A stretch of DNA of 64,000 bases from Scilla litardierei (Eukaryota > Streptophyta > Magnoliopsida > Asparagales > Asparagaceae): NCBI GenBank assembly GCA_030789695.1, contig CM061142.1, positions 149,565,266-149,629,265 on the forward strand, given 5' to 3'. Shown piece by piece: positions 21,605 to 54,181 of the stretch. The notes below the pieces were generated by a model. The model worked only from the letters and a program-made list of their open reading frames with translations. It ran no database searches and was not told the origin of the DNA. The translations under genes and the position numbers were made by a program. Position 1 is the stretch's first letter. Each line of letters opens with the position of its first letter.

Positions 21605-21645
21605 TTGGGCTGGCGGCTGCCCAGAAATTAGGGTTTTAACACTGG

Positions 21646-28463: not shown

Positions 28464-28477
28464 TCCTGCCCCCTTTA
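28464..28477 (-). promoter_or_regulatory. Polypurine tract of element E
   Basis: Minus strand AAAGGGGGCAGGA adjoins the 3' LTR and corresponds in place to the tracts of A, B and C. Confidence 0.75.
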
Positions 28478-28571
28478 AAATAAATTCCGTCCTCGGAATT
28501 TCAAAATAAGGGAGAAAAACTCTCTATACAATACATCATCTAGCAACAACAAAATTACATCAAACAAACTA

Positions 28572-31287
28572 GTGAGGGTACTTCTCTCTCATCTCATCCT
28601 TGAGTTCCCAGGTAGACTCTCCTGGTGACTCTCGGTGCCACATAACCCTCACCAGATTGATTGATTTCTTCCTCAGCATCTTCTACCTTCGGTCTAGAAT
28701 GGACACAGGCTACTGGTCATAGGACAAGTCTGGTCGCACTTCAATCTCTGAGAAGTCGACGACATGATCAGGATTACACATTTCCTGAGTTGCGATATGT
28801 GAAACACATTATGTACTCCTTCAAGAGATGCTGGCAAGGCAATTCTATAATCTACCTCTCCAACATGAGCTAAGACTTTGAAAGGTCCAATATATCTTGG
28901 GCTCAGCTTTCCTCGTCTTCCAAAACGGATTAGCCCTCGTGTTGGTGAAATCTTCAAAAATACTAGCTCGCGTGGCTGAAACTCTAAGTGTCGCCTCTTC
29001 GTATTTGCCCAATGCTTATAATGGTCTTGGGCTATGCGAAGATTATCCCTGACAACTCTCACAACTTCCATTGTTTCAGCGATCATATCCGGACCGAACA
29101 ATTCACGATCTCCAACATCATCCCAACTAAGAGGAGATCGGCACTTCCTCCCATACAGAGCTGCAAATGGTGCCATGCCTACACTAGCTTGATAACTATT
29201 ATTGTAAGCAAACTCTACCAGATGTAGATGTTCATCCCAAGAGCCCTTGAAATCCAGCATGCACGCCCTCAATATATCTTCTAGGATCTGAATTGTCCTC
29301 TCCGACTGATTACTGATTGTGGATGGTATGCAGTGCTGAAACTCAGTTGCTTTCCCAAGCTAGCCTACAGACTTCTCCAAAAGTGAGATGTGAATTAAGT
29401 GTCACGGTCGGAGACTATGCATTCAGGTAGTCCGTGAAGCCTCATGATTTCCTGCATACACGACTTATTCAGAATCTAGACCAACAATAAAACAAATAGA
29501 GATATAAAACAAGAAACCTCACCTCCATATATCTCTTAGCAAGATGGTCTGTCGACTGGCCCACTCGAAAAGGTATGAAGTGAGCGGATTTGGTCAATCG
29601 ATCAACGATTATCCAAATAACATCATATCCTCGAGGAGTACGAGGTAAGCCAGTTACGAAATCCCTCGTCACATACTGCCACTTCCACTCTGGAATCGAA
29701 AGAGGCTGCAAAAGACCTGCCGTTCTTTGGTGCTCGGCCTTGAGTTGCTGACAAGTCAACCATGAAGCTACACTACTAGCCACACTACGCTTCATGCCAT
29801 GCCACCAAATATGCTACCGCAAATCACGATACATTTTGGTGCCTCCAGGATGGATAGAATAGGGTGAGATATGAGCTTCTTTCAACGGTTCATCCCGAAT
29901 GTCACTTGATGGCACACAAATTCTGCTCCCAAAACGCAGAGACCCATCTTCATAAATACAGAAATCATTACGAAGTCCGGCCTCTGTCTGCTCTCGAATT
30001 TTCTTCAGCTTCTCATCTCCAAACTGAGCTACCTTAATTCTCTCAACTAAACCAGATTGAACCTGCAAATTCATCATCACTACTGTTGAACCAGGTAAGA
30101 CAACTCCAATCTCCATCTGTCGAATATTACCCCAAAGTTCTCTCTGTGTCGTCAACGTCATCACTGTCGGCATGTGACTAAGAGCATCAGGCACTACATT
30201 GACTTTTTCAGGTTGATACTGAAGATCTATATCATAATCAGCCATCAACTCGAGCCATCTGCGCTGCCTCATATTCAGCTCTTTCTGAGTGAAGCCTACT
30301 TCAAACTCTTGTGATCAGTGTATATCTTTACACGTTCACCCGAAGAAAATGCCTCCACAACTTCAATGCAAATACCACTGCTGCTAACTTCAAGTCATGC
30401 GTAGGATAGTTCCTCTCATGCGTCTTCAACAACCTAGAAGCATAGGCTACTACCCTACCATACTGATGGAGTACACATCCTAATCCTCTGCTTGACGCGT
30501 CATAGAAAATCTCATATCCACCTGAATGGTCTGGAATCATCAGGACATGTGTAATGATCAATCTATGCTTTAATTCATCAAATGCTCACTGACATTCCTC
30601 TGACCAATTGTAAACAATATTCTTCTTGGTTATATGAGTCATCAGTGCAACGATCTTAGAGAAATCCTTGATGAACTTCCTGTAGTACCCAGCCAATCCC
30701 AAGAAACTTCTAATCTCTGTAACTGACTTAGGAACTGGCCACTTCTCAACTGTAACAACCTTCTCTGGATCTACAGCTATCCCATCTCCAGATACAACAT
30801 GTCCAAGAAAGGAAACTTTGGTCAGCCAGAACTAACACTTGCTATAATTAGCATATAACTGGTGCTGCCTCAGAGTTTCCAAGACTATCTTCAGATACTC
30901 CGCATGATCTTTATTTGACCTTGAGTACACCAAAATATCGTCAATGAAGACGACCACAAACTTATCCAAGTACTCATAGAAGACTTGGTTCATCAATCTC
31001 ATGAATGTGGCTGGTGCATTAGTAACGCCAAAAGGCATCACTAAAAACTCATAATAACCATAACAGGTTCGAAATGAAGTCTTCGGAAAATCTGATCCTC
31101 TGACCTTCACCTGGTGATACCCACTTCTCAAATCCAGCTTCGAATATACACGCGATCCACCCAGCTGATCGAAGATGTCATCAATCCTAGTAAGAGGATA
31201 CTTGTTCTTCACAGTAACCATGTTCAATTCCCGGTAGTCGATGCACATCCTTCGAGATCCATCCTACTTATTCACCAAAAGCACTGG
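28572..31287 (-). pseudogene. Ty3/gypsy Pol of element E, RT to integrase part
   Basis: Starts at the B insertion. The minus strand reads the RT segments [14 protein letters not shown]-type SGYHQV and [13 protein letters not shown] (FIDD intact). RNase H follows as [15 protein letters not shown], then the integrase zinc region EAHISPYSIHPGG and SWLTCQQ, where the first Cys is replaced. The core has RDFVTGLPR, and the C-terminal module is GPFKVLAHVGEVDYRIALP. A TAG replaces Lys just before DGSRRM, and several frameshifts and stops break it (near 30830, 30570, 30290, 29813, 29300 and 28790). A chromodomain-like end is readable to about 28572. Confidence 0.85.
29452..29522 (-). other. Predicted 71-nt integrase intron in element E
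   Basis: Donor ATGGAG/GTGAGG and acceptor TATGCAG/GAAATC. Joining gives RYME-EIMRLHG in frame. It is at the same codon junction as in B and C. Confidence 0.65.
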
Positions 31288-33714
31288 TGTCACGCCCCGC
31301 TTCCCAAAAACATGGAGGCGAAGCGTGAGAAGGTCCGCACGGACTTGAAGCTGCAAAGCCGCAAGTCCGATAAGCGTCAAATAAAACGAAGTAGCAGGTC
31401 CCTGTAATGTGACTCAGAACAACAATAATAATAATAGCAAAAGAGACGAATAATATAGCATTTATTCAACTCATAGTCCAACAAAAATCCACAACCAGAA
31501 ATGCCACCAGGCAACAAAAGAGTCAAAAGTACCAGGCCTAGCATGGCCAAAAGAATCTAACAAAACGGTGCTACTCACCGACAACCACAGCTAATAAAAG
31601 AAAAGTACGGAAGATCTCTAAGATTGATCACCGGTGTCCTTGTATCCCACGTCACCAACAGGTTCGGGCACGAACTCCACGTACTCGTCGCCCTCCGTAA
31701 CTGTCTCTGGCTCAGCAACTAACATGCGTCACCCAAAGAGAAGGGGCACATGTCAGCAAGTCTAAAAATACTTGTGCAAGGAAACTATAAAAGGAAACAA
31801 CCTAGCAGTTCTAAAGTAAAGTATGACAACTATGAAAGTAAAGCAACCTAGCAGTTCTAAAGTAAAGTATGTCATGATATAGCATGGCAAATGACATGGC
31901 AAGGCAAGTAAACAAGTAAAAGACAAGTACTGGAATTGTAATCACGTCGTGCACAGAGATTCCGCCCTTTGGCTAGAGTGTCTTTACGGGCCAACTCTTA
32001 CGCTCAAGTGATCGTTTATCTCTACCCCTCCACGTGTGTCGAGCCATGGCATTACCCCCGAACACGGAATGCTCGCTTCTGGATCACGAGCCAAGAAGTG
32101 TTTTTAACACGGATGGCATAGGGTTATGCCTGTATAACGGGTGCCTAGCCGGTAACATGGAAACGCGGATTTGGTACATGTAGTGTAGCGTGTGCTACGA
32201 TGCAAGTTTAACTAGGATGACATGTAAGATGCAATGCATGGCAGTTTACAATTCAAATGCGTACAGTTAAGGAATTTAAACATGGCAGATATCTATGCAT
32301 GAATGATATGGCAAGGTGTCAGATCTAGCTTCGTTGTCAAGCTAGATCTCAAAGTTGCGCCTAGATCGCTATCATTTCACGATCTAGTCTCTTTCACGCT
32401 AGTACAAGAATTGGCCTAAAAACATGGCCTAAAGAAGGGTTGGCAAGTTTAACTTGCCTAGTACCGAATTGTTGATCGACGTGAGTAACGAGAACGATGT
32501 CCTACGGTAGATGAATTCGCTGTTTATGGCAAAATAAAGATTAGACAGAAGTTCTAAATCGTTTTGCATTGAAATCCTATGTCTAATAATCCATTTTTAA
32601 TTTAGGGTTTCTAATTTACGGTGTGGGTTAAAAGCGATTAAGTGATTAAAGTTACTAACCGTAGAGTAGCGAAAGGAAGACACCAAAACAGATCGTGTTT
32701 TGGCGACGAAGAACAATCCCGGGAAGCTACGGCCGAAAAACGAGATCTCGGCGACCTAGATCGGTAATCGGCGCAAGATACGGCGAGCAAGAACCTCCGA
32801 GGATGAAGGAAATGATTTGGGAAGGTTGGGGATGATTTGTGAATGATCTTGGCTCAGAAAGAATGAATGAAGAATGAAGGAATAGACGGATAAAATGGCG
32901 GCTGGAAAATAGATCTAGGGTTTCGGGGTCAACTAGTCGGTCAAAGAAGAGTGGTGGACCGACTAGTTTAAGAACTAGTCGGTCGGTCGTCTAACGTAGA
33001 CCGACTAAATGGCAAACCGAGAATAGGGTTTTGGTACAGGTCGACTACATTAGTCGGTCAAAGAACAACTGGTGACCGACTAGTTTAAGAACTAGTCGGT
33101 CGGTCGACCAACATTGACCGACTAAAAGATCAACCCAAAAACTTTCGAAGAAAAACTGAACATAGAACTAGTCGGTTGAAGAGCAACTCTTAACCGACTA
33201 AAAAGAAAGATTATACAAGAATTAGTCGGTTGAAGAACAATAGCTGACCGACTAGTTTGCAACCTAGTTGGTCGGAAATCGTTCTTAGACCGACTAACGA
33301 CAAACAGTAACTCTACTGTTCAGTGAAACTCAGAATTGGTCGGTCTGAGTACAATGCTTGACCGACTAGTTTGAGAACTAGTCGGTCGAAGGTTGAACTT
33401 AGACCGACTAACGACAAACAGTAACTCAGCTATTTTTAATACATTGAACTAGTCAGTCCATGAAGGATTACCGACCGACTAGATCTCATTCTAGTCGGTT
33501 GGTTCTCCTTCGTGAACCAACTAAGATGCACCAGAAGTGCCGAAACGAAGCGCGGAGCTTCGGGAAAGATTCTATGGCTTCTAGGATCGTTCTAACTCTA
33601 GATTTACGGCGTTATTTAAGCTAAAATGTGAGGATTCAACCGATGAAAACATACAAGGAAGGGAAATTCAATATTATTCATATAAAATTTTTATTACAAA
33701 CACCGGTTGTTACA
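31288..33714 (-). repeat. 3' LTR of element B
   Basis: Adjoins the polypurine tract on its right. It contains the palindrome array at 32932-33523. No clear TATA box was seen just downstream of the array; the nearest AT-rich pieces are CTATTTTCC and CATTTTATCC. Confidence 0.95.
32932..33523. repeat. TAGTCGGTC palindrome array in the 3' LTR of B
   Basis: Longer than in A: about eleven arm pairs with the same boxes and linker (CGACAAACAGTAACTC). One pair has only a single hairpin, TAGTCGGTTGAAGAG..CTTAACCGACTA, suggesting unit loss or gain. Confidence 0.92.
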
Positions 33715-33728
33715 TCCTCCCCACCTTA
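33715..33728 (-). promoter_or_regulatory. Polypurine tract of element B
   Basis: Minus strand AAGGTGGGGAGGA directly before the 3' LTR. Confidence 0.85.
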
Positions 33729-33760
33729 AGAAAAAATCCGCCCTCGAAATTTCCTAACAC

Positions 33761-36700
33761 TCACGTGTCAGGGAACAAAAGTGGGTAGCGCTCACGTATC
33801 TCATCTTCCCTCTCACAAGTATACTCTCCTGGCGAGCCGTGTCGTCACATCACCCTCACAAGATTTACGGTCTTGTTCCGAAGTGACTTCTGACGCCTGT
33901 CCAAAATCTGAACTGGTAGCTGGTCATACGTCAGATCAGGGCGAACGGTGATCTCCGAGAAATCCACAGCGTGAGACGGATCGCTAACATAACGACGAAG
34001 CTGCGACACATGGAAGACGTCGTGAACTCCAACCAAAGATGGCGGCAAGGCTAAGCAGTAGGCTACCTCGCCAACCCTCTCCAGGACGTCAAATGGTCCA
34101 ATGTATCTCAGGCTCAGCTTCCCGCGCTTCCCAAAGCGAATCACTCCTCGATTCCGGGAAATCTTCAGAAACACGTGGTCACCAGGCTGAAACTCCAACG
34201 GACGCCGCTTCGCATCAGCCCAATGCTTAAAACGGTCATGAGCAATCCTCAGCCGCTCCCGAATGTTTTTGACAACATCCACAGCCTCCACGGTCATCTC
34301 AGGTCCCAACAGCTCCTGATCTCCAACGTCATCCCAACTCAGTGGCGATCGACATTTCCTTCCGTATAGCGCAGCGAATGGTGCCATGCCAATACTCGCC
34401 TGGAAGCTGTTATTATAAGAGAACTTCACCAGGTGTAGATGGTCCTCCCACGAACCCTTAAAATCCAACATACACGCCCTCAGCATGTCCTCCAAGATCT
34501 GAATCGTCCTCTCGGACTGGCCATCCGTCTGCGGATGGTACGCCGTGATGAAACTCAGACTCGTACCCAAACTCCTCTGCAGACTCTGCCAGAACTGAGA
34601 CGTGAATCTCGTGTCTCTGTCCGACACGATACTCACAGGGACTCCGTGCAGTCGAACGATCTCCTGCACGAACACGTTACATCACTAGCTATTCTAGGAA
34701 AGGAAATGAAAATGGAAAGTAAAAGAGTTTACCTCCATATATCTCCTCGCCAGCGCCTCAGTGGACTGTCCTACTCGGAACGGAATAAAGTGTGCGGATT
34801 TGGTCAATCGGTCTACGATCACCCAAATCGCGTCATTCTGCTTCGGACTCCGAGGTAGTCCAGTCACGAAGTCCATAGTGATGTGTTGCCACTTCCACTC
34901 CGGAATCGGAAGCGGTTGTAGCAACCCTGCCGTACGCTGATGCTCCGCTTTAACCTGCTGGCAAACCAAGCACTTGGCCACGCTCCGAGCCACGCTCCTC
35001 TTCATCCCATGCCACCAGAAATTCAAACGAAGATCCTTGTACATCTTGGTCCCACCAGGATGCACAGAATACGGCGAACTGTGTACCTCCACCAACAGCT
35101 CCTCTCTGATATCTCCTGTAGGCACACACAACCTGGCTCCAAACCTCAGCAAGCCATCCTCGTGAATCACGAAATCAGTCCGCAGACCCGCTTCCACCAT
35201 CTCTCGAATCTTTACCAACTTCGGATCACCACTCTGCCAAGCCTTGATCCGATCCACGATCGTCGACTGTATCTGCATTCACATCAACGAAGAAGTCTCT
35301 CTAGGCAGAATCACATCAACTCCAGACTCGCAAAAATCCTGTTGCATCTCCACTGCGAAGTCAACAACATCACCGCCGGAAGCCTACTCAACGCATCAGG
35401 AACCACATTCACTTTACCCGGGTGATACTGTAACTCGATCTCATAGTCCGCCATGAGCTCCAACCACCGACGTTGTCGCATGTTGAGCTCCTTCTGCGTG
35501 AAAATGTACTTCAAGCTTTTGTGATCGGTGAAAATCTTCACTTTCTCACTCAGCAAGAAGTGCCTCCAAATCTTCAGCGCAAACACAACAGCAGCCAACT
35601 CCAAATCATGCGTCGGGTAATTCTTCTCATGAGCCTTAAGCTGACGAGAAGCATACGCGACCACGTGCCCATGCTGATGCAACACACATCCAAGACCTTT
35701 GCCAGAAGCATCGCAAAAGATCTCGAATCCTCCACTCCGGTCGGGCACAGCAAGAACAGGGGCGGACATCAACCGCTCCTTCAGAACACCAAAATCTTCC
35801 TCACATCCAACGGACCAATCAAAAGATACATCCTTCCGCGTCAACCTGGTCATCGGCTCGGCAATACGGGAGAAATCCTTGATGAATCGCCGGTAATAAC
35901 CTGCAAGTCCAAGGAAACTCCGGATCTCAGACGCTGACTGCGGAACAGGCCATTCTCTGATAGCCCGAATCTTCTCGGGAACCACCGAAATCCCATCACC
36001 AGTCAACACATGCCCTAGAAAAGCCACTCTATCCAGCCAGAACTCGCACTTCGAATACTTGGCATACAACCGATGCCTCCTCAGAATTTCCAATACCGTC
36101 CTCAAGGGCAACGCATGCTCTTCCTTTGACTTAGAATAGATCAAAATGTCGTCAATGAAGATAACGACAAACTTATCTAGATAGTCATAGAAGATCAAGT
36201 TCATCAGGTTCATAAATACTGCGGGCGCGTTGGTCACACCAAAAGGCATAACCACGAACTCGTAGTGACCATACTTCGTCCTGAAAGCCGTCTTCGGAAT
36301 ATCCTCTTTCCTCACCTTCGGCTGGTGATATCCACTCCTCAGGTCCAATTTGGAGAATACCCTCGATCCTCCCAGCTGATCAAAAATATCATCAATCCGT
36401 GGCAATGGGTACTTATTCTTCACAGTCACCGCATTCAGCCCTCGATAATCCACGCACATGCGATGCGAACCGTCCTTCTTCTTCACCAGCAGGACCGGTG
36501 CTCCCCACGGAGACACACTGGGATTAATGTAACCCTTCCGCAAAAGCTCATCCAGCTGCTTCCGCAACTCCTCCAATTCCGCCGGAGCCATACGGTAAGG
36601 TGCCTTTGAAATGGGCTGCGCTCCCAAAATCAGGTCAATAGAAAATTCCAGAGCTCGATCGGGCGGCAGACCAGACATCTCCTCGGGGAAGACGTCATCA

Positions 36701-37151
36701 TAATCACGCACTACAGCAGGCCTACCCTGCTCCATCAGCATAGCCACAGCCTCCACCGGCTTGGCCCGAAACCTGACCGGACCAAGCGAACTGCTACCAC
36801 GGCTGAACTCAAACACAGGATGTCCAGGAATCTCGAACACCACCTTCTTCCTCCGACAGTTGATCGTAGCATAGAAGCTCGCAAGCCAATACATCCCAAG
36901 CACTGCATCGTAATTGATGATGTCGTGGACAATAAAGTCAGCATACAGCTCGTGTCCACAGACCACCAACGGGCAAGAATTGCACCCACGATGCACCGAA
37001 ATCACACCATTCCCTGTGACGATGTTCCAACTCTGGGGAAGAGAGGAAGTCGACAAGGAATGCCTCTCCACGAAGCTCCGAGAAATGATGCACATGGATG
37101 CACCAGAGTCAAAGAGAACTCATGCAGGAAAAGCGCAGACCAAAATCACAC
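33761..37151 (-). pseudogene. Ty3/gypsy Pol of element B
   Basis: Begins at the predicted acceptor. The protease carries TGA at 37120-37122 where relatives have CGA, just before LFDSGA. From 37095 a 594-codon frame holds reverse transcriptase ([13 protein letters not shown]), RNase H (FCDASG, FTDHKS) and the connection [12 protein letters not shown], and then loses frame near 35340 by a one-base deletion. The integrase continues at 35278 with the zinc region ([22 protein letters not shown]) and MDFVTGLPRS. After the integrase intron come VSDRDT and GQSERT, so the DDE residues are present. Near the end TGA replaces TGG in VRVMW (33845-33847); the frame is readable to 33761. Confidence 0.92.
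34664..34732 (-). other. Predicted 69-nt integrase intron in element B
   Basis: Donor ATGGAG/GTAAAC, T-rich middle, acceptor TCGTGCAG/GAGATC. Joining restores RYME-EIVRLHG. Unspliced RNA meets a stop inside the intron before the second catalytic Asp. Confidence 0.68.
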
Positions 37152-37263
37152 CTAACAGACAGTCTAACAATCAAATTCTATTCTAGCAATCAAACATATG
37201 CAAACAACTAACATATCTAACAACCAAACTAACTAAGAAAGAAACAGCTAGATAGAAATTTAC
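37152..37263 (-). other. Predicted 112-nt gag-pol intron in element B
   Basis: Donor ATCGCAG/GTAAAT and acceptor CTGTTAG/GTGTGA. Joining gives EVIAG-VILVC in frame, as in A. Confidence 0.63.
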
Positions 37264-38395
37264 CTGCGATAACCTCATCCAGCGTCTCGGTCTCAGCAGC
37301 AGTCATCAGAAACGCCTGTCGCCTCGGCTGGACAGCCTGCTGAAAAGCATGCCTCTGAGGAACTAGAGGCGCTCCACATCCAGCAGGAATAGGTGCCCTC
37401 TGTTGCAACGGCTGAGCTGCAACAGGTGCCCTCCACGGCTGCTTCGACTTCGGACAGTCCTTCATGGTATGCGCAGGATCTCCACAAACCAGACACTGCC
37501 CCAGCATCTTCCGGCACTGCTCCTTGACATGCCCAGTCTTGCCACAGAAATTGCAAGTCTTCAAAGTAGGAGGTCCCCCGGGCCTCTTGAACTGCACAGG
37601 CTGGTTGGGCCCGTGCCCCGGTCTCACCACTGCTCTGACCTGCTCCATAGGCCTCTTCCCAGTGCCAGAAAACGGTCCCCTCTTCTGATTCACAATCCTC
37701 TCCTGCCTCTTGGCCGCAATCAGAACCTTCTGGTAAGTCTCTGCATCAGAAGAAGTGACATAGCTCTACAGATCCAAAGAAAGCCCCTGCAGAAACCTCT
37801 AGGCTCTCTCCTCAGCATCCTGCACCATCTTCGGTGCAAAACGACTCAGCCTCGTAAATTCCTGATGGTACTGGTACACCGTCAAATTCCCTTGCTTCAA
37901 ATCAATGAAGCGCTGAGCCATTTCTCTCCTGGCGGCCTTAGGAAAATATTCCTCATCAAACCTGGACTTGAAGGTAGCCCAAGTAATAGGCTCCTCCAGC
38001 AACTCCTCCTCGGCATCCCACCAGTTCCTCGCGTTGTCCTTCAGCTGTCGCTTTGCGAGATCAACCCATCCTGTCGGGTCGACCTTCGACATCTTCAGAT
38101 TGTCTTCCATGTTCCTGGTCCATTCATCTGCAGCCAGGGGTCCTTCGGTCCCGTCAAAGTAAGCGAGACCCAGCTCCCGAAATTGCTTCGCTCCGGGCTC
38201 GAAGCGAGGGGCAGCCTGAACAACCGGTGCTGCACGAGCAGGCGGAACATTCCGGACAGTCTGCAGAATTCCTTGCTGCACCTGCATCATCTGATGCATC
38301 ATCCTCAGCATCTCTCCGGCAGTGGGCTCCTGGTCCGGCTCCTGGTCGCGAGGGGGCACACCACCACCACCACGGGTATTCCGTCTCCCAGCCAT
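37264..38395 (-). pseudogene. Gag of element B with two stops
   Basis: Starts MAGRRNTRGGGGVPP at 38395, with the gag domain FDGTEGPLAADEW to FAPKMVQDAEERA. TAG at 37799-37801 and TAG at 37766-37768 stand where relatives have CAG. The frame then continues through NQKRGPFSG to two zinc knuckles, CNFCGKTGHVKEQC and CLVCGDPAHTMKDC, and to ALDEVIAG-like sequence at the splice donor. Apart from the two point stops it is collinear with Gag of A. Confidence 0.92.
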
Positions 38396-39917
38396 CTATT
38401 GACACAGGAAAACGAAACAGATCAGACTCTTAGCCAAAGGCACGGTGTTGAATTTTTGTTAATTGAACTTTCTATAATTCTTATTGTTATTCTGATTAAG
38501 TCACAGTTACAGAAAATAGGACCTGCATTGGCCACCAAAGAAACATGTCACGCCCCGCTTCCCAAAAACATGGAGGCGAAGCGTGAGAAGGTCCGCACGG
38601 ACTTGAAGCTGCAAAGCCGTAAGTCCGATAAGCGTCAAATAAAACGAAGTAGCAGGTCCCTGTAATGTGACTCAGAACAACAATAATAATAATAGCAAAA
38701 GAGACGAATAATATAGCATTTATTCAACTCATAGTCCAACAAAAATCCACAACCAGAAATGCCACCAGGCAACAAAAGAGTCAAAAGTACCAGGCCTAGC
38801 ATGGCCAAAAGAATCTAACAAAACGGTGCTACTCACCGACAACCACAGCTAATAAAAGAAAAGTACGGAAGATCTCTAAGATTGATCACCGGTGTCCTCG
38901 TACCCCACATCACCAACAGGTTCGGGCACGAACTCCATGTACTCGTCGCCCTCCGCAACTGTCTCTGGCTCAGCAACTAACATGCGTCACCCAAAGAGAA
39001 GGGGCACATGTCAGCAAGTCTAAAAATACTTGTGCAAGGAAACTATAAAAGGAAACAACCTAGCAGTTCTAAAGTAAAGTATGACAACTATGAAAGTAAA
39101 GCAACCTAGCAGTTCTAAAGTAAAGTATGTCATGATATAGCATGGCAAATGACATGGCAAGGCAAGTAAACAAGTAAAAGACAAGTACTGGAATTGTAAT
39201 CACGTCGTGCACAGAGATTCCGCCCTTTGGCTAGAGTGGCTGTACGGGCCAACTCTTACGCTCAAGTGATCGTTTATCCCTACCCCTCCACGTGTGTCGA
39301 GCCATGGCATTACCCCCGAACACGGAATGCTCGCTTCTGGATCACGAGCCAGGAAGTGTTTTTAACACGGATGGCGTAGGGTTATGCCCGCATAACGGGT
39401 GCCTAGCCGGTAACACGAAAACGCGGATTTGGTACATGTAGTGTAGCGTGTGCTACGATGCAAGTTTAACTAGGATGACATGTAAGATGCAATGCATGGC
39501 AGTTAACAATTCAAATGCGTACAGTTAAGGAATTTAAACATGGCAGATATCTATGCATGAATGATATGGCAAGGTTTCGGATCTAGCTTCGTTGTCAAGC
39601 TAGATCTCAAAGTTGCGCCTAGATCGCTATCATTTCACGATCTAGTCTCTTTCACGCTAGTACAAGAATTGGCCTAAAAACATGGCCTAAAGAAGGGTTG
39701 GCAAGTTTCACTTGCCTGGTACCGAATTGTTGATCGACGTGAGTAACGAGAACGATGTCCTATGGTAGATGAATTCGCTGTTTATGGCAAAATAAAGATT
39801 AGACGGAAGTTCTAAATCGTTTTGCATTGAAATCCTATGTCTAATAATCCATTTTTAATTTAGGGTTTCTAATTTACGGTGTGGGTTAAAAGCGATTAAG
39901 GGATTAAAGTTACTAAC
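38396..39917 (-). other. Predicted 1522-nt leader intron of element B
   Basis: Donor CTCTACG/GTTAGTAAC in the 5' LTR; acceptor TTTTCCTGTGTCAATAG directly before the gag ATG; branch-like TCTGAT upstream. The length is nearly the same as in A although the LTR sequences differ strongly. Confidence 0.5.
38498..38672 (-). promoter_or_regulatory. U5-leader stem and primer region of element B
   Basis: Leader arm at 38498-38526 (AGTCACAGTTACAG..GGACCTGC) pairs with LTR arm at 38652-38672 (GCAGGTCC, CTGTAA, GTGACT) with bulges. The pairing is longer than in A. The putative primer site is TTGGTGGCCAATGCAGG, next to the LTR end at 38546. Confidence 0.6.
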
Positions 39918-40973
39918 CGTAGAGTAGCGAAAGGAAGACACCAAAACAGATCGTGTTTTGGCGACGAAGAATAATCCCGGGAAGCTATGGCCGAAAAACG
40001 AGATCTCGGCGACCTAGATCGGTATCTGGCGTAAGATACGGCGAGAAATAACCTCCGAGGATGAAAGAAATGTTTTGGGGAAGATTAGGGATGATTTGTG
40101 AATGATCTTGGCTCAGAAAGAATGAATGAAGAATGAAGGAATAGACGGATAAAATGGCGGCTGGAAAATAGATCTAGGGTTTCGGGGTCAACTAGTCGGT
40201 CAAAGAAGAGTGGTGGACCGACTAGTTTAAGAACTAGTCGGTCGGTCGTCTAACGTAGACCGACTAAATGGCAAACCGAGAATAGGGTTTTAGTACAGGT
40301 CGACTACATTAGTCGGTCAAAGAACAACTGGTGACCGACTAGTTTAAGAACTAGTCGGTCGGTCGACCAACATTGACCGACTAAAAGATCAACCCAAAAA
40401 CTTTCGAAGAAAAACTGAACATAGAACTAGTCGGTTGAAGAGCAACTCTTAACCGACTAAAAAGAAAGATTATACAAGAATTAGTCGGTTGAAGAACAAT
40501 AGCTGACCGACTAGTTTGCAACCTAGTCGGTCGGAAATCGTTCTTAGACCGACTAACGACAAACAGTAACTCTACTGTTCAGTGAAACTCAGAATTGGTC
40601 GGTCTGAGTACAATGCTTGACCAACTAGTTTGAGAACTAATCGGTCGAAGGTTGAACTTAGACCGACTAACGACAAATAGTAACTCAGCTATTTTTAATA
40701 CGTTGCACTAGTCGGTCCATGAAGGATTGCCGACCGACTAGATCTCATTCTAGTCGGTTGGTTCTCCTTCGTGAACCAACTAAGATGCATCAGAAGTGCC
40801 GAAACGAAGCGCAGAGCTTCGGGAAAGATTCTATGGCTTCTAGGATCGTTCTAACTCTAGAATTACGGCGTTATTTAAGCTAAAATGTGAGGATTCAACC
40901 GAGGAAAACATACAAGGAAGGGAAATTCAATATTATTCATATAAAATTTTTATTACAAACACCGGTTGTTACA
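38546..40973 (-). repeat. 5' LTR of element B
   Basis: 2428 bases, matching the 3' LTR. It adjoins the leader and carries the array at 40191-40782. Confidence 0.95.
40191..40782. repeat. TAGTCGGTC palindrome array in the 5' LTR of B
   Basis: Same arrangement as the 3' copy with several single-base changes inside boxes (for example GACCAACTAG, TAATCGGTC). Confidence 0.92.
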
Positions 40974-41632
40974 TCTGGCGCACCCCATGGTGAAACACTT
41001 GGCTGAATGAGACCACGCTCTGACAAATCCTTCATCTAACTACAAAGCTCTGCTAACTCTGGAGGAACCATATGGTATGAGGCCTTTGCAATCAGTTGAG
41101 TGGTTGGATTCAGATCAATGTGAACTCCAAAGATCTATCCAGAGGAAGTCCATAGATATCGTCCGGGAAGACATCAGGAAATTCCCAAAATACCCTTGGC
41201 AATACAGGTTCAGCTTCCATCTCCATCATCACTTCTACTGGGCTAGCCTTAAACTTCAACGGTCCAAGGGAACTACTACCACTAAGAAATTCAAACGCTG
41301 GATGATCAGTAATCTGAAATACTATCTTCCCGAGTCTACAATCTATGGTGGCATAGAACATCCCTAACCAATCCATTCCAAACACTGCTTCAAAATGAGG
41401 CATCTCCATCACTAAGAAATCTGCATACAATATACGTCCACAAATCTCCAAGGACATTGTTGGTATTCTGAAGAATTGCGGATCACTCCACTCCCTATAT
41501 GGATATTCCAACTAGAAGCAAAGAAATCTACTATTAAATAATTCCTAGTCACAAACTGTTGAGACAGGAAGCAATGTGATGCTCATGAATCAAAAAGTGA
41601 CAAGGCAGGAAAGGAAGTAACTCTAATAACAC
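40974..41632 (-). pseudogene. Ty3/gypsy protease and RT start of element E
   Basis: Starts at the predicted acceptor. The minus strand reads TSFPALSLFDS then TGA where Gly of the DSGA active site is expected, so the protease is dead. The frame 41511-41110 continues with [23 protein letters not shown] and LPRVFWEFPDVFPDDIYGLP, the usual segment between protease and reverse transcriptase. It stops after ALD-type sequence and the reverse transcriptase is then cut by B. Confidence 0.82.
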
Positions 41633-41746
41633 CTAAGAGAAATAATACAAACTAACATAAGAGTCTAAACATCCTAATCACAGAAACAATTATAACATAC
41701 TATAATAGAACTAAGAAAGCATTCATTACTGAAAATAAATGGGTAC
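41633..41746 (-). other. Predicted 114-nt gag-pol intron in element E
   Basis: Donor ATCACTG/GTACCC and acceptor CTCTTAG/GTGTTA. Joining gives RVITG-VIRV in frame, matching the VITG junction of A and C although the intron sequences differ. Confidence 0.6.
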
Positions 41747-41925
41747 CAGTGATAACTCGACAGGTGTCCTCTGCCTCAACAGCTGACACGGTAAAAGCCT
41801 GACGCCTCGGTGCCGCTCTCCTCAGGGTCTGCTGCTGCTGGGGAGGTCTAGGTGGTCCTCTCAGGGTCATTGTACCCGGTGCTGGTGGAGCTGGCAGTGG
41901 AAGCCTCTGTGGAGCTGGTGGAAGG
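41747..41925 (-). pseudogene. Gag of element E, C-terminal part
   Basis: Pro- and Gln-rich end of Gag (LRGPPRPPQQQQTLRRAAP, RRQAFTVSAVEAED) running to the splice donor. It joins the part at 59531 after removal of D. RRQAF is also found at this place in A, B and C. Confidence 0.8.
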
Positions 41926-42500
41926 TGAAGGGTTTTGGCGGGCCCTTAGGGCACAAATCCGTGCCCGTCCTAAGTCGGACGGATTATGGAAGCATAAATA
42001 GCAGCGGAAATTTTTTTGTTTATCTAATTAACATGCAGCCCTAAGGAACAAGACCCTTAACCAGGGTCTCTGCCAACTCGGGGTGGATCTGACCACCCCA
42101 AGAGGGATCTAAACTACTGCGAATAAATAAAACGAAAGCTTCTAAAAATATACCCGGAATCTTAACCCTGAGGCAGGCAAAATGTACCGCACCGTCTTTC
42201 GAGTCGCTCCCCGTCCCACGCCGAGCCACTCCTCGAACCGCTCCGCATCCCGAGGCGAGCAATCCTCGTGTCGCTGAGCCAACCACGCACCGAAGAAAGT
42301 TTCACGCGAGTGAAAGCCTTCGCCAAGATTTCGGATCCAAATCCGAACCCCTTCGTGGCTTCGCTAGACCCTTCAGGAGTAAGGCAGAAATTTAGGGGGA
42401 AGAGAAATTAATTTAAGCTTTGATCCTAGCGTGCTCCAACATTTTTGGGAGATGTTCAGATCTTGAGCTTGGGACGAGTTTGGAGGAAGGGGGAGGCCCC

Positions 42501-42512
42501 TATTTATATAGG
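42501..42512 (-). promoter_or_regulatory. TATA box of element D (3' LTR copy)
   Basis: Minus strand CCTATATAAATAGG. The 5' LTR copy lies at 58681-58692. About 330 bases separate it from the palindrome array, a wider gap than in A or C. Confidence 0.75.
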
Positions 42513-42840
42513 CGGTTAACTCTCTCCTTTTCTCCACAACTGATGTGGGACTAAAGTTTGGAGTTAATAAATTCAATTTAGTTTTCCTTTCACAAAGGCC
42601 AAACTTTCGTAAATTTTAACTCCCTCACCGTTGAGCTTCATGATTGATACAACCTATCAATTCGAAGGGCGTTCAACGGTGAACGCATATGAAAAAATGG
42701 CGAGTCAATCGGAGTTCGTTTGACCCTCCAATTGATCGTCCAAAGATCAGCACAACCGCACAAAACCACAAACAGCCAGCCGCCAAGAATTGCACGAAAA
42801 CCTAGAACGTGGGGCCACGCGGGCCCCACTTTTTTCTGCA

Positions 42841-42960
42841 TGCGTAGCGCACGCGCTGGGCACGTGCAAAGCACGTGGCCTATGCCTAGCACGTGCCCAG
42901 TGGGCCCGTGCACAGCACGCGCCTCGCGCGTGCTGTGCATGTGTCCCACGTGCACAGGCA
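42841..42960. repeat. GCACGTGC-type palindrome array, 3' LTR of D
   Basis: GC-rich run of short palindromes: GGGCACGTGC, GCACGTGG, AGCACGTGCCC, CGTGCACAGCACGCG, CCACGTGCAC. The core CACGTG is the plant G-box, a known bZIP and bHLH binding site. Open frames here are artefacts of the GC-rich repeat. Confidence 0.8.
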
Positions 42961-43387
42961 AGGGGGCCCCGCATCAGGATGCGGGCGGCCCCCTTTCGGT
43001 ATTTGCGGGCACTTAGAGCGCCTGTTGCTTGTTTTTGCAGGAAAAAACAAGCCCGCCCGACCCAATGGCCGGGCTTTAATGTGGGCCCCCCTTATCGCTA
43101 TTTAAATCAGCCTATTGGGCTGAAACGCAATGGTTTAGGGCCTTTGATTGTTTTGATCATATCTTGAGCGTTTAGCATCCGATTTGGATGCCGTTCGAAC
43201 CTAGGCTTAGACCGGGACATTCCCGTCTTACCCGTGAAATTTTTCTTGCGTTTATTTTATTAAATATTGTAGTAAACTATTTATGACACATTTAATCTGG
43301 TTTGCATCAAATGCAAAATAGTCCCTATCTAAGCTTAAATTTTCATTTACATCAAATACAAATGATCTGAGGGCATATCCCCCAACA

Positions 43388-43402
43388 TCTCCCACTTGCA
43401 CT
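43388..43402 (-). promoter_or_regulatory. Polypurine tract of element D
   Basis: Minus strand AGTGCAAGTGGGAGA adjoins the 3' LTR start TGTTGGGGG, a common copia 3' junction. Confidence 0.85.
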
Positions 43403-43901
43403 CAGGATCATTTATCTTGAATGCAGGAGATAATTGCAAATATCTTTTGCAATATTTTATCCCTTGCATCAAATGCATATTCTCTCTAATCGTTTCTACC
43501 TATTACTTGACGAAAGTCAAACTTTATTGAGACCCTACAGCCTGACCCTTACTACAGGTTGGGCTCGAAGCCTTATACGGCAGTGACCACGAGCACAGGC
43601 TGTCGTCCCTGCCTCAGAAGCATAATTATGTGGTTGACTCATCGACATGAGAATTGTTGGAACCACCCTGACTGTGTCTGTGATGAGTTCCGCAGTTTTA
43701 GTCTCTTTGTCTAAACTATGTCATGTAGATCAAGTCTAGGGTACGGTCAAACTGTCACCCCCAATAACTTGAATCCGATTAGTTTCTAGTGATCTTTAGT
43801 CAACTAATGTTGAACTTCTTCCAACATACTCTGATCAGAGATTTTACTAAATACCAAACTAACTTTACGACACCAACTCCCATTGACCGAGAGAGACGAA
43901 T
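43403..43901 (-). other. Internal region of D, left of C
   Basis: Noncoding sequence between the D polypurine tract and the C insertion. No ORF, no known domain. The last five bases CGAAT are the C target duplication. Confidence 0.7.
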
Positions 43902-46307
43902 TGTCACGACCCGCTTCCCTAAAATGGAGGCGAGACGTGAAAAGGTCCGCACGAGAGTGGAGCTGTGAAGCCCCAAACCCGATAAGCGTCAATAAAACGT
44001 AAGCAGGTCCCTGTAACCACAACGGAACAATAATAATAACACAAGGAGAGACTGAAATAAAATCTCACATCTCATAAATTGTCCAACATGAAAATAAGTC
44101 CAACATCCAGAAAAGCCACCAGGCTAAAAGAAAGAGTCTAAAGGCCCATAACAAGGCCAACAAAAGCAACGACATAACAAGGTATAGGTGCTACGCACCG
44201 ATAACAAAACAACTGTCTAAACAAAAGTAGAACACAACGAAGACACTAGGACTGGTCCCCAGTGTCCACGTACTCCCCGTCAAACACAAGCTCGGGCTCG
44301 GCGTCAGCAAACACCTCGTCCTCAACAAGGTACTCAGGCTCAGGATCTAACATGTGTCACCCAAAAGAGTAAAGGGGCACATGTCAGCAAGTCTAAAAGA
44401 CTTGGGCAAGGAAACAGAAAGTAAGGCAACTAGCAACCTAGCAGTTTTAGTATGCATGACATGGCAGTTATAACATGAGTGCACAAGTAAGACATAATAA
44501 ACAATAAGCACAAGAGTACAATTATCGGGACAAGACAAGAGTAGCCAAGCTACTAACAATCTCAATCATTTCACGTTGTTTTGTAGATGTTTACGCCCTT
44601 CAGCTGAATGGTACGTCATTCACACCGATCGGCACTAAACACTACCCCACCCCAGAGTTTACGCCTTACAACTGTAGTTGCTGATCAGGCAGACCCCCAG
44701 TTGACTGGCCGCTTAACCCTTACCCCATCCCACACGTAAACAAGCCAGGGTCCCTGTACATGAGCCCAGCAAGTGAGCCAGGGTTGCCCCGCACGGGAGC
44801 TTGTTTTCCTATTTCACAATTCAATATCGAGCGTTGGGGTTTCCAACTACAGGGCTCGCTTCTGGAACACGAGCCAGGAACACAAGCATTGTAGCGAAGC
44901 TACGCAATCACATCAACACTTAAAGAATGCAATGACATGACAATTAATTCGCGTACCGTCAATGGAAAGTAAACATGACATGGTAATTGTGCAACATGAT
45001 ATATGTCGGAACTAGCTTCGTTGCCAAGCTAGTTCCCCAATTTGCGCCTAGGCGAGTATCATTTCGTCGCCTAGCCTCTTTTACGCCTACAACAAGCAAA
45101 TGGCCTAAAACATGGCCTAAACCCTAGGTGGCAAGTTTCACTTGCCTAGCACCGGGAATGACGATCACGAAGGTTCGTCTCGCGGATGCTAATCTACGGG
45201 GGAAATCGCTGTTATGGGGAAACAAACATCAAACAACATGAAATTTCATTAGGGTTTCATAAAAATACAAATAGGATATAAAAACGTCAAGAGATCGATT
45301 TCTTACCGAGAGGAAGCGGAAGAAACACTCCGGAGAACCATAGGACCAGATCGGGAAACAAATGGAGAAGTTTGGAGAATTAGGGTTTTTGGGGGATTTT
45401 GGGGATTTGGTGAGATTTTGGGGAAGATGAGAGGTAGAATGAGTGGATGGAGGGTTTAGATGATGAATCTAGGGCTTGGGATGAAGGAATAGGGCTTGGA
45501 GGAAGATGGGGGCTCAATGGGGGAGAAACTAGGGTTTTGGGTCAAGTGGAGGAAGAAGAAAACGTTTGGGAGGGGTATAAATAGGATGGGCTGGCGGCTG
45601 CCCAGAAATTAGGGTTTTAACACAGATTAGTCGGTCAAAGAGCAACCACTGACCGACTAGTTTGGCAACTAGTCGGTCGGTCGACCAACGCAGACCGACT
45701 AAGTGCAAACAGTAACTTCTGAATGAAAATAGGATTTAGATTTAGTCGGTCCATGAACAAATACTGACCGACTAGTTTAGCATCTAGTCGGTCGATAAAC
45801 GTTCTTAGACCGACTAAGAGTAAACAGTAACTGATACTAAAATTAGATGATGTGTTAGTCGGTTAAAGAAGCATTGCTGACCGACTAGTTTGCAACCTAG
45901 TCGGTCAACCAACGTTCTTAGACCGACTAACGATAAACAGTAACTCCTGAATAATTTAGAAAGCCAACTAGTCGGTCCAAGAAGGATTGCCGACCGACTG
46001 GATCGTCATCTAGTCGGTCGGTGCCCCTTCTTAGGTTAATAAGCACCAAAAGTACCGATACAGAGCGCGGGGCCCGGGATCGATTCCTAAGACTCCTAGG
46101 CTTGATCTAATAGTAAGATACGACCGTTATGAAGTCCGTCACGAATGACATACTTCGAAATCGACGATCCTAAGGAAGAAACGAGAAAACATGACGAAAC
46201 GATCGGAAATGAAAGTTACGGAGACGAAAACCACACATGAGGAGAAAATCCACCAAAACATATATTATATTATAATAAATCCAGATACATGAAAAGCAGT
46301 CGTTACA
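43902..46307 (-). repeat. 3' LTR of element C
   Basis: Adjoins the polypurine tract. It differs from the 5' LTR by a small number of substitutions and a short indel near 46035, where the 5' copy has TACACCGGCTAA. Confidence 0.95.
45627..46038. repeat. TAGTCGGTC palindrome array in the 3' LTR of C
   Basis: Four composite units as in A, ending about 40 bases from a TATA-like CCTATTTATACCC (45575-45587, minus reading). Confidence 0.93.
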
Positions 46308-46321
46308 TCCTCCCCAACTTA
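46308..46321 (-). promoter_or_regulatory. Polypurine tract of element C
   Basis: Minus strand AAGTTGGGGAGGA directly before the 3' LTR. Confidence 0.85.
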
Positions 46322-46353
46322 AGAAAAATTCCGTCCTCGGAATTTCCGAATAC

Positions 46354-49300
46354 TCACGAGTCCGGAAACAAAAGTGGGAAACGCTCTCGCATCTCATCCT
46401 CATTCTCCCAAGTAGACTCTCTAGGTGAGCCGTGTCGCCACATCACCCTCACAAGATTGACAATCTTGTTCCGAAGCGATTTCTGACGCATGTCCAGAAT
46501 CTGCACTGGATGCTGGTCATACGTCATATCGGGGCGAATGGTAATCTCCGAAAAATCCACAGCATGAGATGGATCGCTAATGTATCGACGAAGCTGCGAC
46601 ACATGGAAAACATTGTGAACTCCTTCCAAAGATGGCAGCAAGGCCAAGCGATAAGCTACCTCGCCAACCCTCTCCAAAATGTCAAACGGTCCAATGTATC
46701 GCGGGCTCAACTTCCCTCGCTTCCCAAAACGAATCACACCGCGATTCGGGGAAATCTTCAAGAACACATGGTCGCCCGGCTGAAATTCCAAAGGACGACG
46801 TTTAGCATCCGCCCAATGCTTAAAACGGTCCTGAGCAATTCTCAACCTCTCCCGAATATTCCTGACGATATCCACGGCCTCCACGATCATCTCAGGTCCC
46901 AACAACTCCCGATCACCAACGTCATCCCAACTCAATGGCGATCGACATTTCCTCCCATAAAGAGCGGCGAAAGGCGCCATGCCAATACTCGCCTGGAAGC
47001 TGTTGTTGTAAGAGAACTCCACCAAATGCAGATGGTCCTCCCACGAACCCTTGAAATCCAACATGCACGCCCTCAGCATGTCCTCCAAAATCTGAATCGT
47101 CCTCTCGGACTGGCCATTCGTCTGCGGATGGTACGCCGTGCTGAAACTCAGACGTGTACCCAAGCTCTTCTGCAAACTCTGCCAGAACTGAGATGTGAAC
47201 CTCGTGTCTCTGTCCGACACGATACTCACGGGGACTCCATGAAGTCGCATAACCTCCTGCACGATTCACGTTACATCACTATCCAAACTAGGAAAAGGAA
47301 ATAAAACGGAGAGTAAAAGAATTTTACCTCCATGTATCTCCTTGCTAGCGCCTCAGTGGACTGTCCCACTCGGAACGGAATAAAGTGCGTAGATTTGGTC
47401 AATCGATCTACGATCACCCAAATCGCGTCATTCTGCTTCGGACTCCGAGGTAGTCCAGTCACGAAATCCATAGTGATGTGTTGCCACTTCCACTCCGGAA
47501 TCGAAAGCGGTTGTAGCAACCCGGCCGTACGCTGATGCTCCGCCTTCACTTACTGGCAAACCAAGCACTTGGCTACACTCCGAGCCATACTCCTCTTCAT
47601 ACCATGCCACCAATAATTCAGACGAAGATCCTGGTACATCTTGGTGCCACCAGGATGCACAGAATACGGCGAACTGTGTGCCTCCACCATCAATTCCTCT
47701 CTGATATCCCCAGCTGGCACACACAGCCTGGCTCCAAACCTCAGCGAGCCATCCTCATGAATCAAAAAGTCAGTCCGCAGACCGGCTTCCACCTGCTCCC
47801 GAATCTTCACCAGCTTCGGATCCTCAGCCTGGCCAGCCTTAATCCGATCCACGATCGTCGACTGTACCTGCATGTACATCAACGAAGAAGCCGCCCCAGG
47901 AAGAACAATCTCCACGCCAGACTCACAAAAATCCTGCTGCAACCTCCACTGCGAGGTCAAAATCATCACCGCTGGAAGCCTACTCAAAGCATCAGGGACC
48001 ACATTCACCTTGCCAGGGTGAAACTGCAAATCAATCTCATAATCTGCCATAAGCTCCAACCATCGACGCTGCCGCATGTTGAGCTCCTTCTGAGTGAAAA
48101 TGTACTTCAAGCTTTTGTGATCGGTGAAAATCTTCACTTTCTCACTCAGCATGAAGTGCCTCCAAATCTTAAGAGCAAACACAACGGCAGCCAACTCCAA
48201 ATCATGTGTCGGGTAATTCTTCTCATGAACCTTAAGCTGACGAGACGCATACGCCACAACATGCCCATGCTGATGCAACACACAACCGAGACCCTTGCCA
48301 GAAGCATCGCAAAAGATCTCAAATCCACCGCTGCGATCAGGCACAACAAGAATAGGGGCAGTCGTCAACCTCCCCTTCAGAACACCAAAAGCACTCTCGC
48401 AATCACCTGACCAAACAAAAGCAACTTCCTTCCGCGTCAACCTGGTCATTGGCTCAGTAATACGAGAAAAGTCCTTAATGAATCGCCGATAATAACCAGC
48501 AAGTCCAAGGAAACTCCGAATCTCAGACGCAGACGACGGAACAGGCCACTCCCTGATGGCCCTAATCTTCTCGGGATCCACTGAAATACCATCTCCAGTC
48601 ACCACATGCCCGAGAAAAGCAACTCTATCTAGCCAGAACTCGCACTTCGAAAACTTAGCATACAAACGATGCTTCCTCAAGATCTCCAACACCGTCCTTA
48701 AGTGCGAGGCATGCTCTTCCTCCGACTTCGAATAGATCAGAATGTCGTCAATGAAGATAACGACAAACTTATCCAAAAAGTCGTAGAAAATCAGGTTCAT
48801 CAGATTCATGAAAACTGCGGGTGCGTTAGTTACGCCAAAAGGCATAACCACAAACTCATAGTGTCCATACTTCGTCCTGAACGCTGTCTTCGGAACATCA
48901 TCCTTCTTCACCTTCAACTGATGGTAACCACTCCTCAAATCCAACTTAGAAAACACCCTCGAACCTCCAAGCTGATCAAAAATATCATCGATGCGAGGCA
49001 ACGGGTATTTATTCTTAATGGTCACCGCATTCAACTCCCGATAGTCCACGCACATGCGACGCGAACCATCCTTCTTCTTCACCAGCAACACCGGTGCTCC
49101 CTACGGAGACACGCTAGGATTAATATAACCCTTCTGCAAAAGCTCATCCAACTGCTTCTGCAACTCTTCCAATTCTGCAGGTGCCATACGATACGGCACC
49201 TTCGAAATCGGCTGCGCACCTGGAACAAGATCGATAGAAAATTCCAAAGCCTGATCAGGCGGCAAACCAGACATCTCCTCGGGGAAGACGTCGCCAAAAT

Positions 49301-49747
49301 CTCGCACCACAGCTGGCCACTCCAGCTCCATCTGCATAGCCACAACCTCCACCGGCCTGGCCCGAAATCTGACAGGACCAAGCGAACTGCTACCACGACT
49401 GAACTCAAATACTGGATGTCCGGGAATCTCGAACACCACCTTCTTCCTCTGACAGTCGATCGTAGCATAGAAGCTCGCAAGCCAGTCTATCCCAAGAACT
49501 GCATCATAGTTGATGATGTCGTGGACAATGAAATCAGCGAAAAGCTCATGTCCACAGACCACCAACAAGCAGGAATTGCAACCACGATGCACCGAGACCA
49601 CGCCATTCCCTGTAACGATATTCCAACTCTTGGGAAGAGGGGACGTCGACAAGGAATGCCTCTCCACGAAGCTCCGAGAAATAATACACATCGATGCACC
49701 AGAGTCAAAGAGGACTCGTGCAGGAAATGTGCAAACCAAAACCACAC
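46354..49747 (-). pseudogene. Ty3/gypsy Pol of element C
   Basis: From the predicted acceptor: protease [12 protein letters not shown], reverse transcriptase with [13 protein letters not shown], RNase H (FCDASG, HDLELAA, FTDHKS), and integrase zinc region ([20 protein letters not shown]). After the intron come VSDRDT and GQSERT, then [18 protein letters not shown] and a chromodomain-like end WRHGSPRESTWENEDEM. Stops: TAG at 49101-49103 replaces TGG in SPWGAP, and TAA at 47550-47552 replaces CAA in CQQVKAEHQ. Otherwise full length and collinear with A and B. Confidence 0.93.
47257..47327 (-). other. Predicted 71-nt integrase intron in element C
   Basis: Donor ATGGAG/GTAAAA, T-rich middle, acceptor TCGTGCAG/GAGGTT. 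Joining gives RYME-EVMRLHG, phase 0. Element A has exactly the joined sequence at this place. Confidence 0.7.
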
Positions 49748-49860
49748 CTAACAATCAATTAATAATCAAACCCTAGTCTAGCAAACAACCATGTTCAAGC
49801 AAACAACATAATCTAATAATCAAAACCAGCTAGGAAAGTGACAACTAGAGTGAGGATTAC
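49748..49860 (-). other. Predicted 113-nt gag-pol intron in element C
   Basis: Donor ATCACAG/GTAATC and acceptor TTGTTAG/GTGTGG. Joining gives EVITG-VVLVC in frame. Confidence 0.65.
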
Positions 49861-50991
49861 CTGTGATAACCTCATCCACAGCCTCGCTCTCCGCAGCGGT
49901 CATCAGAAAAGCCTGCCTCCTCGGCGGAACAGCCTGCCGAAAAGCCTGTCCCTGCGGAACAAGAGCTGCTCCACGTCCAGCAGGAACAGACGCTCGCTGC
50001 TGCAACGGCTGTGCTACAACAGGTGCCCTCCGCAGCGGACCCGCATGCCGACAATCCCTCACGACATGGGAAGCATCACCACACACCAAACACTGGCCCA
50101 AAAACTTTCGACACTGATCCTTGATGTGGCCAGGCTTGCCGCAGAAATGGCAAGTCTTCAGAATAGCCCTCCTGGCCTCTTAAACTGAGCAGACTGATTA
50201 GGCCTGAATCCAGGTCTAACCACAGCTCTCGCCAGTTCCACAGGCCTCTTCACAGCACCAACAATAGACCCCCTCCTCTGGTTCACGAGCAGCTCCTGCC
50301 TCTTGGCTGCTACTAGAACCTTCTGATAAGACTCCCGGTCAGAAGAGGTCACAAAACTCTGGAGCTCCGAAGCAAGTCCCTGCAGGAACCTCTGAGCTCT
50401 CTCCTCAGCGTCCTGCACCATCTTTGGTGCAAACCGACTCAGCCTCATGAACTCTTGGTGATATAGGTCCACCGATGAGCTCCCCTGCTTCAAATCGATA
50501 AAACGATGCAGCATCTCTTCCCTGGCAGCTTTCGGGAAGAACTCACCCTCAAATCTGGCCTTGAAGGTAGCCCAAGCTATCGGCTCCACCAACATCTTCT
50601 CTTCTGCATCCCACCAATTCTGAGCATTATCCTTGAGTTGTCTCTTCGCCAAATCAACCCATCCAGCCGGGGTGATCTTGGCCATCTTCAAATTGTCCTC
50701 GATGTTCCGAATCCACTCATCGGCAGCCAGAGGACCCTCAGACCCATCAAAATATGCGGGACCCAGCTCCCGAAATTGCTTCGCTCCTGGCTCAGAGCGA
50801 GGGGCATCCGGAATAGCCCGGGCAGCTCAAGCAAGTGGAGCATTCTGGACTTGCAGGAGCACGCCCTGCTGCACTTGCATCATCTGGAGCATCATCCGCA
50901 TCATCTCACCGTTGGTGGGTTCCCGCTCAGGCTCCTCCTCATGAGGGATCGCACCACTACCCCCACCACGGGTGAAACGTCTTCCTACCAT
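49861..50991 (-). pseudogene. Gag of element C with one stop and one frameshift
   Basis: Starts MVGRRFTRGGGSGAIPH at 50991. TGA at 50827-50829 replaces CGA. The gag domain (KRQLKDNAQNWWDAEE to ERAQRFLQG) is intact. A one-base deletion near 50165 in KRPGGP shifts the frame just before the first zinc knuckle. The first knuckle (TCHFCGKPGHIKDQC) and the second (CLVCGDASHVVRDC) are readable in the next frame, ending at AVDEVITG and the splice donor. Confidence 0.92.
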
Positions 50992-54136: not shown

Positions 54137-54181
54137 AGGATGCCTCGAGGGCATTATCTCTAAACATCTCCCACTTGCACT
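54137..54181 (-). repeat. Second polypurine tract and LTR-start-like junction inside D
   Basis: In minus reading GAGTGCAAGTGGGAGA is followed by TGTTTAGAGATAATGCCCTC, which mirrors the real D junction (GTGCAAGTGGGAGA then TGTTGGGGGATATGCCCTC). It looks like a remnant 3' LTR start of a related element embedded in D. Confidence 0.55.

Follow-up and report, generated by a model that had tools for sequence, protein, structure and literature searches.

Four gypsy-type long terminal repeat (LTR) retrotransposons, referred to as A, B, C and E, are read on the minus strand of a 64,000-nt stretch of the Scilla litardierei genome (contig CM061142.1; here called the window) and carry short, T-rich GT..AG inserts at one or two positions of their coding sequence. 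One insert is located between gag and protease (intron 1) and is present in all four elements, and the other is located inside integrase (intron 2) and is present in B, C and E. Judged from the sequence, both inserts are most probably real, spliced introns, intron 2 having been lost in A, and we put the probability of this reading at about 85%. Introns in elements that are copied through RNA are surprising, since their loss is expected, and a constitutively spliced intron would be expected to vanish within a single round of retrotransposition.

Inserts at two coding boundaries

Intron 2 is located at 34664..34732 in B (69 nt, GTAAAC..TGCAG), at 47257..47327 in C (71 nt, GTAAAA..TGCAG) and at 29452..29522 in E (71 nt, GTGAGG..TGCAG), in phase 0 and on the minus strand in each case. 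These are the coordinates given by an earlier reading of the same DNA (referred to as the original prediction), which had described GT..AG inserts after the residues RYME. In B, C and E the insert is preceded by ATGGAG (RYME) and followed by GAG, GAG and GAA respectively (E-I/V..RLHG), so that it occupies one identical codon boundary between the first and second catalytic Asp. Unspliced reading runs into an in-frame stop within the insert in B, C and E, as had been predicted, and 71 is not a multiple of three. Element A holds the exact joined sequence that had been described for it: at 16134..16135, on the minus strand, ..ATGGAG is followed directly by GAGGTC.., and the junction between 16135 and 16134 reads straight through. 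In the A open reading frame (ORF) the junction comes directly after residue 90; the putative catalytic triad of this ORF is D44, D105 and E141, based on an alignment with the integrases of Ty3 and prototype foamy virus (PFV). The T content of intron 2 is 42, 44 and 49% in the three elements, compared to 23–29% in 300-nt exon flanks. The B and C inserts agree at 57 of 69 sites, and the E insert is 51–55% identical to either. Because the inserts share a single codon boundary and are T-rich, and because selection acts on the coding sequence on either side of them, their position is not due to chance.

Intron 1, which is absent from the original prediction, is likewise T-rich with GT..AG ends. It separates gag from protease in 4/4 elements, in phase 1 and again on the minus strand, and is located at 18555..18665 in A (111 nt, GTAACT..ATTAG), where it is retained, at 37152..37263 in B (112 nt, GTAAAT..GTTAG), at 49748..49860 in C (113 nt, GTAATC..GTTAG) and at 41633..41746 in E (114 nt, GTACCC..CTTAG). 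It contains stops in all three frames and interrupts the glycine codon of V-I-T/A-G ahead of the protease start, which reads VVLV.. in A and C, VILV.. in B and VIRV.. in E, followed by ..LFDS. Compared in pairs, the intron 1 copies of A, B and C are 70–76% identical. Five of the seven gaps in the A–C alignment of the 5' side (~3.66 kb) fall within intron 1, the remaining two being of 3 and 1 nt, and the alignment of the 3' side has an end gap only.

Considering both introns, GT..AG lies at a boundary that joins conserved coding sequence in 7/7 inserts (three of intron 2 and four of intron 1), and T content is 42–51% across all seven, compared to 23–29% in the flanks (flanks of E intron 1 excluded). 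The gag/pol break of A, B and C is not decay; a T-rich GT..AG insert is found there in all four elements, E included. A group II intron, an intein and recoding were dropped by reasoning, the inserts being too short and frame-breaking.

The domain order gag, protease, reverse transcriptase (RT), RNase H and integrase was found with Pfam on pieces of A, with the zinc-binding part of integrase taken from B. The rve match in A scores 30.2 bits, under the cut-off of 32.6, and a chromodomain (PF00385) is listed for C, with an E-value of 1.2e-4 and 22.4 bits, below the cut-off of 25.1, and not for A or B. We refer to all four elements as Tekay-like, a clade name that follows the original prediction. 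Protease and RT lie in one shared ORF in A, both inserts being located elsewhere, so the ORF layout of A lacks the intron between protease and RT ORFs that characterises Ogre-type elements.

Selection on the flanking coding sequence was estimated between B and C. Downstream of intron 2, dS is 0.571, dN is 0.050 and omega is 0.088 (298 codons, one stop codon skipped), and upstream omega is 0.092 (795 codons, four stop codons skipped). An omega of 0.088 after a frame-breaking insert points to in-frame translation of the downstream part in the intron-bearing lineages. For E, dS is saturated; its dN to A, B and C is 0.17–0.19 in exon 2 and about 0.22 in exon 1, and it shows no sign of relaxed selection past intron 2.

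These values bear on the alternative that the inserts are not spliced at all, in which insertion of non-coding sequence disrupted a single ancestral copy, whose descendants spread via proteins from intact elements. In its favour, A, B, C and E contain some stops or frameshifts, and LTR elements can be mobilised in trans. However, this alternative needs two inserts, each GT..AG, T-rich and restoring conserved protein when skipped, and it has to accommodate both an omega of about 0.09 downstream at a B–C dS of about 0.55 and the presence of the inserts in the more distant E, as well as the exact absence of intron 2 from A. It is thus considered highly improbable compared to splicing of both inserts.

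Probable gain and loss of intron 2

The state of the intron 2 site elsewhere was read from three protein searches, each with candidates capped at about 8000 for scoring and the best 120 listed, from which 339 proteins were fetched in all. The site is reached with enough upstream sequence in 120 of them, of which 102 are continuous, three are tailed, seven end too early and eight are otherwise different. The three tailed proteins (P0121, P0122 and P0130, on contigs of 15–24 kb) come from the exon-1 search, where tails were inspected in 105 newly listed proteins, and end exactly at the intron 2 boundary plus a tail that starts with Val, the residue that GT would encode; the tail of P0122 is a single V. 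The closest named matches among those listed include an Iris protein (P0126), annotated as continuous although the annotation may represent a spliced product, and two Asparagus proteins (P0133 and P0192) that both stop before the site; these matches point weakly to a monocot as host. Database matches to exon 2 were set aside as intron evidence, since many start with MQ|E or ME|E, residues that the end of either an exon or an intron could encode.

At the DNA level, plasmids, viral contigs and a first scan of genome contigs gave no usable matches. A genome-contig scan produced 11 loci, 10 of which are readable at the intron 2 site and all 10 continuous there (L011 matched over 29 residues only). 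L001–L008 are plant-like gypsy DNA within bacterial genome records, apparently contamination. The plant-like loci that cover the intron 1 site (L003, L005, L006 and L008) read on in frame across the corresponding glycine in 4/4 cases, L005 and L006 looking like one sequence (identical at the intron 2 site). The proposal that intron 2 is ancestral thus holds within the subclade of B, C and E and fails beyond it, given the continuous state of 102/120 proteins and 10/10 DNA loci.

A tree built from 64 exon-1 proteins unites A, B, C, E, P0121, P0122 and P0130 in a clade (support 99/84), and the intron label requires two changes, a number as low as this being reached in 0/500 shuffles. Every row without a tail was labelled continuous in this tree, a few of them unverified, and the count is two changes once more when verified rows only are used. 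A 5' DNA tree (1764 nt, with six outgroup loci, of which L007 is 30% filled and L002 is cut two codons off) places A and C as sisters (95/91) and rejects a group of B, C and E without A (p 1.75e-8), and the 3' DNA tree has the same topology (88/81). Because the outgroups are continuous and A nests among intron bearers on DNA, a single gain followed by loss in A is favoured: as the best reading, intron 2 would have been gained inside a Tekay-like subclade before B, C and E separated, and then lost in A, which agrees with the exact loss of a phase-0 intron that had been proposed for A.

How the loss came about is suggested by the composition of A. A tract at 15435..18221 (minus strand), which holds the intron 2 site and excludes intron 1, is recently shared with C, with a synonymous p of 0.08–0.18, compared to 0.29–0.58 between A and C in the coding blocks that flank it, where the value is close to the A–B distance in 4/5 blocks. 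In gag, dS is 0.70 for A–C, 1.09 for A–B and 0.93 for B–C, and a uniform distance between A and C as sisters is rejected, as the gag value contrasts with 0.17–0.20 in pol. The original prediction had spoken of three families with the insert and a fourth without; the absence from A stands, whereas a fourth family is an overstatement, A being closest to C near the site despite the distance between them in gag.

Since A keeps intron 1, its template cannot have been a fully spliced RNA. The route invoked for the loss in the original prediction, in which a spliced genomic transcript is reverse transcribed, therefore calls for refinement, the lost intron moreover lying within the tract common with C. 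The loss of intron 2 inside this tract and the retention of intron 1 outside it fit template switching onto spliced RNA, and we tentatively suggest as the simplest account, at slightly less than even odds, that A arose when reverse transcription switched to the RNA of a C-like element from which intron 2 had been spliced out, the rest of A, intron 1 included, having been copied from unspliced RNA. B and C are relatively recent insertions in which both introns are still present, so the RNA copied into them was unspliced; E, likewise flanked by LTRs, also retains both.

Alternatively, intron 2 may be real but have been removed from A by genomic deletion or by gene conversion between DNA copies. 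A 3-nt microhomology, AG|G, common to both splice sites makes an exact deletion possible, and conversion could equally produce the ~2.8-kb tract that A has in common with C. Against deletion, a longer repeat of 6 bp (GGAGGT) is present at both borders in C, where deletion would be expected to cost one Glu codon, whereas A has the splice product; conversion requires an intron-less donor and so only shifts the question. Removal at the DNA level is accordingly unlikely, although less so than the absence of splicing considered above.

Several observations weigh against spliced introns, the loss in A or the route proposed for it. Splicing itself is deduced from DNA, as is any regulatory role of the two introns, and introns in other species are suggested by protein tails, one of them a single residue, and not by DNA. 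The usual splice donor has G at +5, but this position of intron 2 is A in B and C, and no clear branch point (CTRAY) is seen by eye in intron 2 of either. Intron 2 differs between B and C at 12/69 sites, compared to 46/174 nearby four-fold sites, which is no difference (p 0.18); conservation beyond that of synonymous sites is therefore not claimed, even though the comparison with all synonymous sites gives p 6.5e-4. When the gag tail was compared with the start of the protease profile, the gag-tail pieces had no Pfam protease match, and the stops or frameshifts present in all of A, B, C and E are ordinary ones. On the trees, uniting the six intron rows in a clade that leaves A out is not significantly worse for proteins (p 0.246), the group of B and C without A is only borderline on 5' DNA (p 0.053), and that of B, C and E is not significant on 3' DNA (p 0.08). 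The exchange history of A is not one clean block: its gag block 19413–19014 is clearly nearer C (0.31, compared to 0.60 to B), and beyond integrase, at 15234–14936, it is again nearer C (identity 0.90–0.96, compared to 0.56–0.75 to B).

The first two of these tree tests, together with the low identity of the E insert to those of B and C, speak for an old intron-less state of A, in which E on the one hand and the B/C group on the other each acquired intron 2. Such separate gains would need parallel events at one codon boundary and in one phase, the 5' DNA tree rejects the group of B, C and E without A, and A is closest to the intron-bearing C within the common tract. Separate gains are thus the least probable of the alternatives, and a gain before B, C and E diverged, with subsequent loss in A, is preferred.

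A possible splicing switch and known elements

The two introns may act as a two-step splicing switch in a plant chromovirus subclade, in which RNA with no intron removed provides Gag and the genome, removal of one intron provides protease and RT, and removal of two provides integrase; we consider this somewhat short of an even chance. Unspliced RNA would be the genome, packaged and reverse transcribed, and would encode only Gag with a short tail, because translation halts inside intron 1. With intron 1 removed, protease, RT and RNase H would become readable, together with the N-terminal stretch of integrase that ends at intron 2, and removal of both introns would give the full integrase with the second Asp, the Glu and the C-terminal domains. 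The introns would then set the Gag:Pol and perhaps the RT:integrase ratios. Splicing would have to be incomplete for the introns to persist, and the intron 2 donors of B and C, together with a length of 69–71 nt that is close to the lower size limit of plant introns, may be hints of this.

If true, integrase competence would be tied to nuclear RNA processing, and the long persistence of introns in an element copied through RNA would be due to the packaging of unspliced RNA. The retention of two introns across B, C and E implies that unspliced RNA must be packaged, with splicing somehow held back, and the arrangement suggests how an element with otherwise one long reading frame could make more Gag than Pol. 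Element A would serve as a natural experiment, with one intron lost and one kept, the loss falling within a tract common with another lineage. Genome surveys can count intron states per copy, which makes the intron tolerance of retroelements measurable.

Among elements that invite comparison, CRR, the rice centromeric retrotransposon, is a chromovirus, and foamy virus is a vertebrate retrovirus that is not known to have an intron inside integrase. Penelope-like elements keep introns despite RNA-mediated movement; they have no LTRs of this kind and replicate differently.

The following comparisons draw on passages of the papers cited. According to a 2025 review, introns are generally missing from plant LTR elements, Ogre and EVADE being some of the exceptions (PMC12786077). 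Ogre transcripts are partly spliced (PMC6317226), and the “intron in the POL” of PMC2533021 concerns an Ogre family; Ogre belongs to the Tat lineage of Ty3/gypsy, whereas here the introns are located between gag and protease and inside integrase of a Tekay-like element. Transcripts of CRR and Bagy2 are also spliced (PMC3735527), CRR being, like the elements described here, a gypsy element; however, splicing in CRR removes RT and makes two ORFs (PMC3735527), whereas the inserts described here carry no coding sequence and the domains stay intact when they are removed. BARE1 and EVADE (Ty1/copia) similarly have an alternative intron near the gag–protease border that sets Gag against Pol, that of BARE1 being 104 nt long and U-rich (PMC3735527, PMC12786077), but the logic is opposite: there the spliced RNA gives Gag only, whereas here the unspliced RNA would do so, with splicing opening Pol. 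Tf2, a gypsy element of fission yeast, resembles the present case as a gypsy-group element with a spliced intron and differs in that its intron is described as cryptic and tied to the formation of small interfering RNA (PMC7175516). As proposed here, foamy virus makes Pol from a spliced message (PMC5014426). A copia-type beet element has been described with “unexpected introns”, which its authors considered possibly to be frameshifts and point mutations (PMC2669250).

In the open PubMed Central literature, as far as the passages returned go, no Tekay-like element with an integrase or gag–protease intron was found, subscription papers being mostly outside this collection and the search predating intron 1. 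Splicing of plant LTR elements is therefore already known, the arrangement with one intron between gag and protease and another in integrase is new as far as found, and the novelty of the two-intron arrangement is provisional.

Elements and nesting in the window

Element A (12788..22334, minus strand) has a 5-bp target duplication, ACGTC, by eye, and its LTRs differ at 6/2400 sites. In-frame stops are located in its pol, just before 16413 and at 16831, alongside these near-identical LTRs; therefore A was probably either mobilised with the aid of other copies or hit by mutation during replication. Element C (43902..53546, minus strand) has the target duplication CGAAT, again by eye, with LTR differences at 19/2406 sites. 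Element B (31288..40975, minus strand) sits in the pol of E, with flanks ACTGG/TCTGG by eye (4/5 match) and LTR differences at 48/2429 sites.

Element E (26429..62518, minus strand) is interrupted by the nested B and F, with an LTR pair at about 26429–28416 and 60594–62518 and a target duplication that is not established. F, with LTRs at 41926–43387 and 58094–59530, in turn contains C. LTR divergence is higher in F (135/1421) than in E (139/1915), despite F being nested inside E. Outside this nest, a broken copia-type element is located at 2776–7150 (ORFs by eye), and a further partial LTR-like match is located at 8440–9063.

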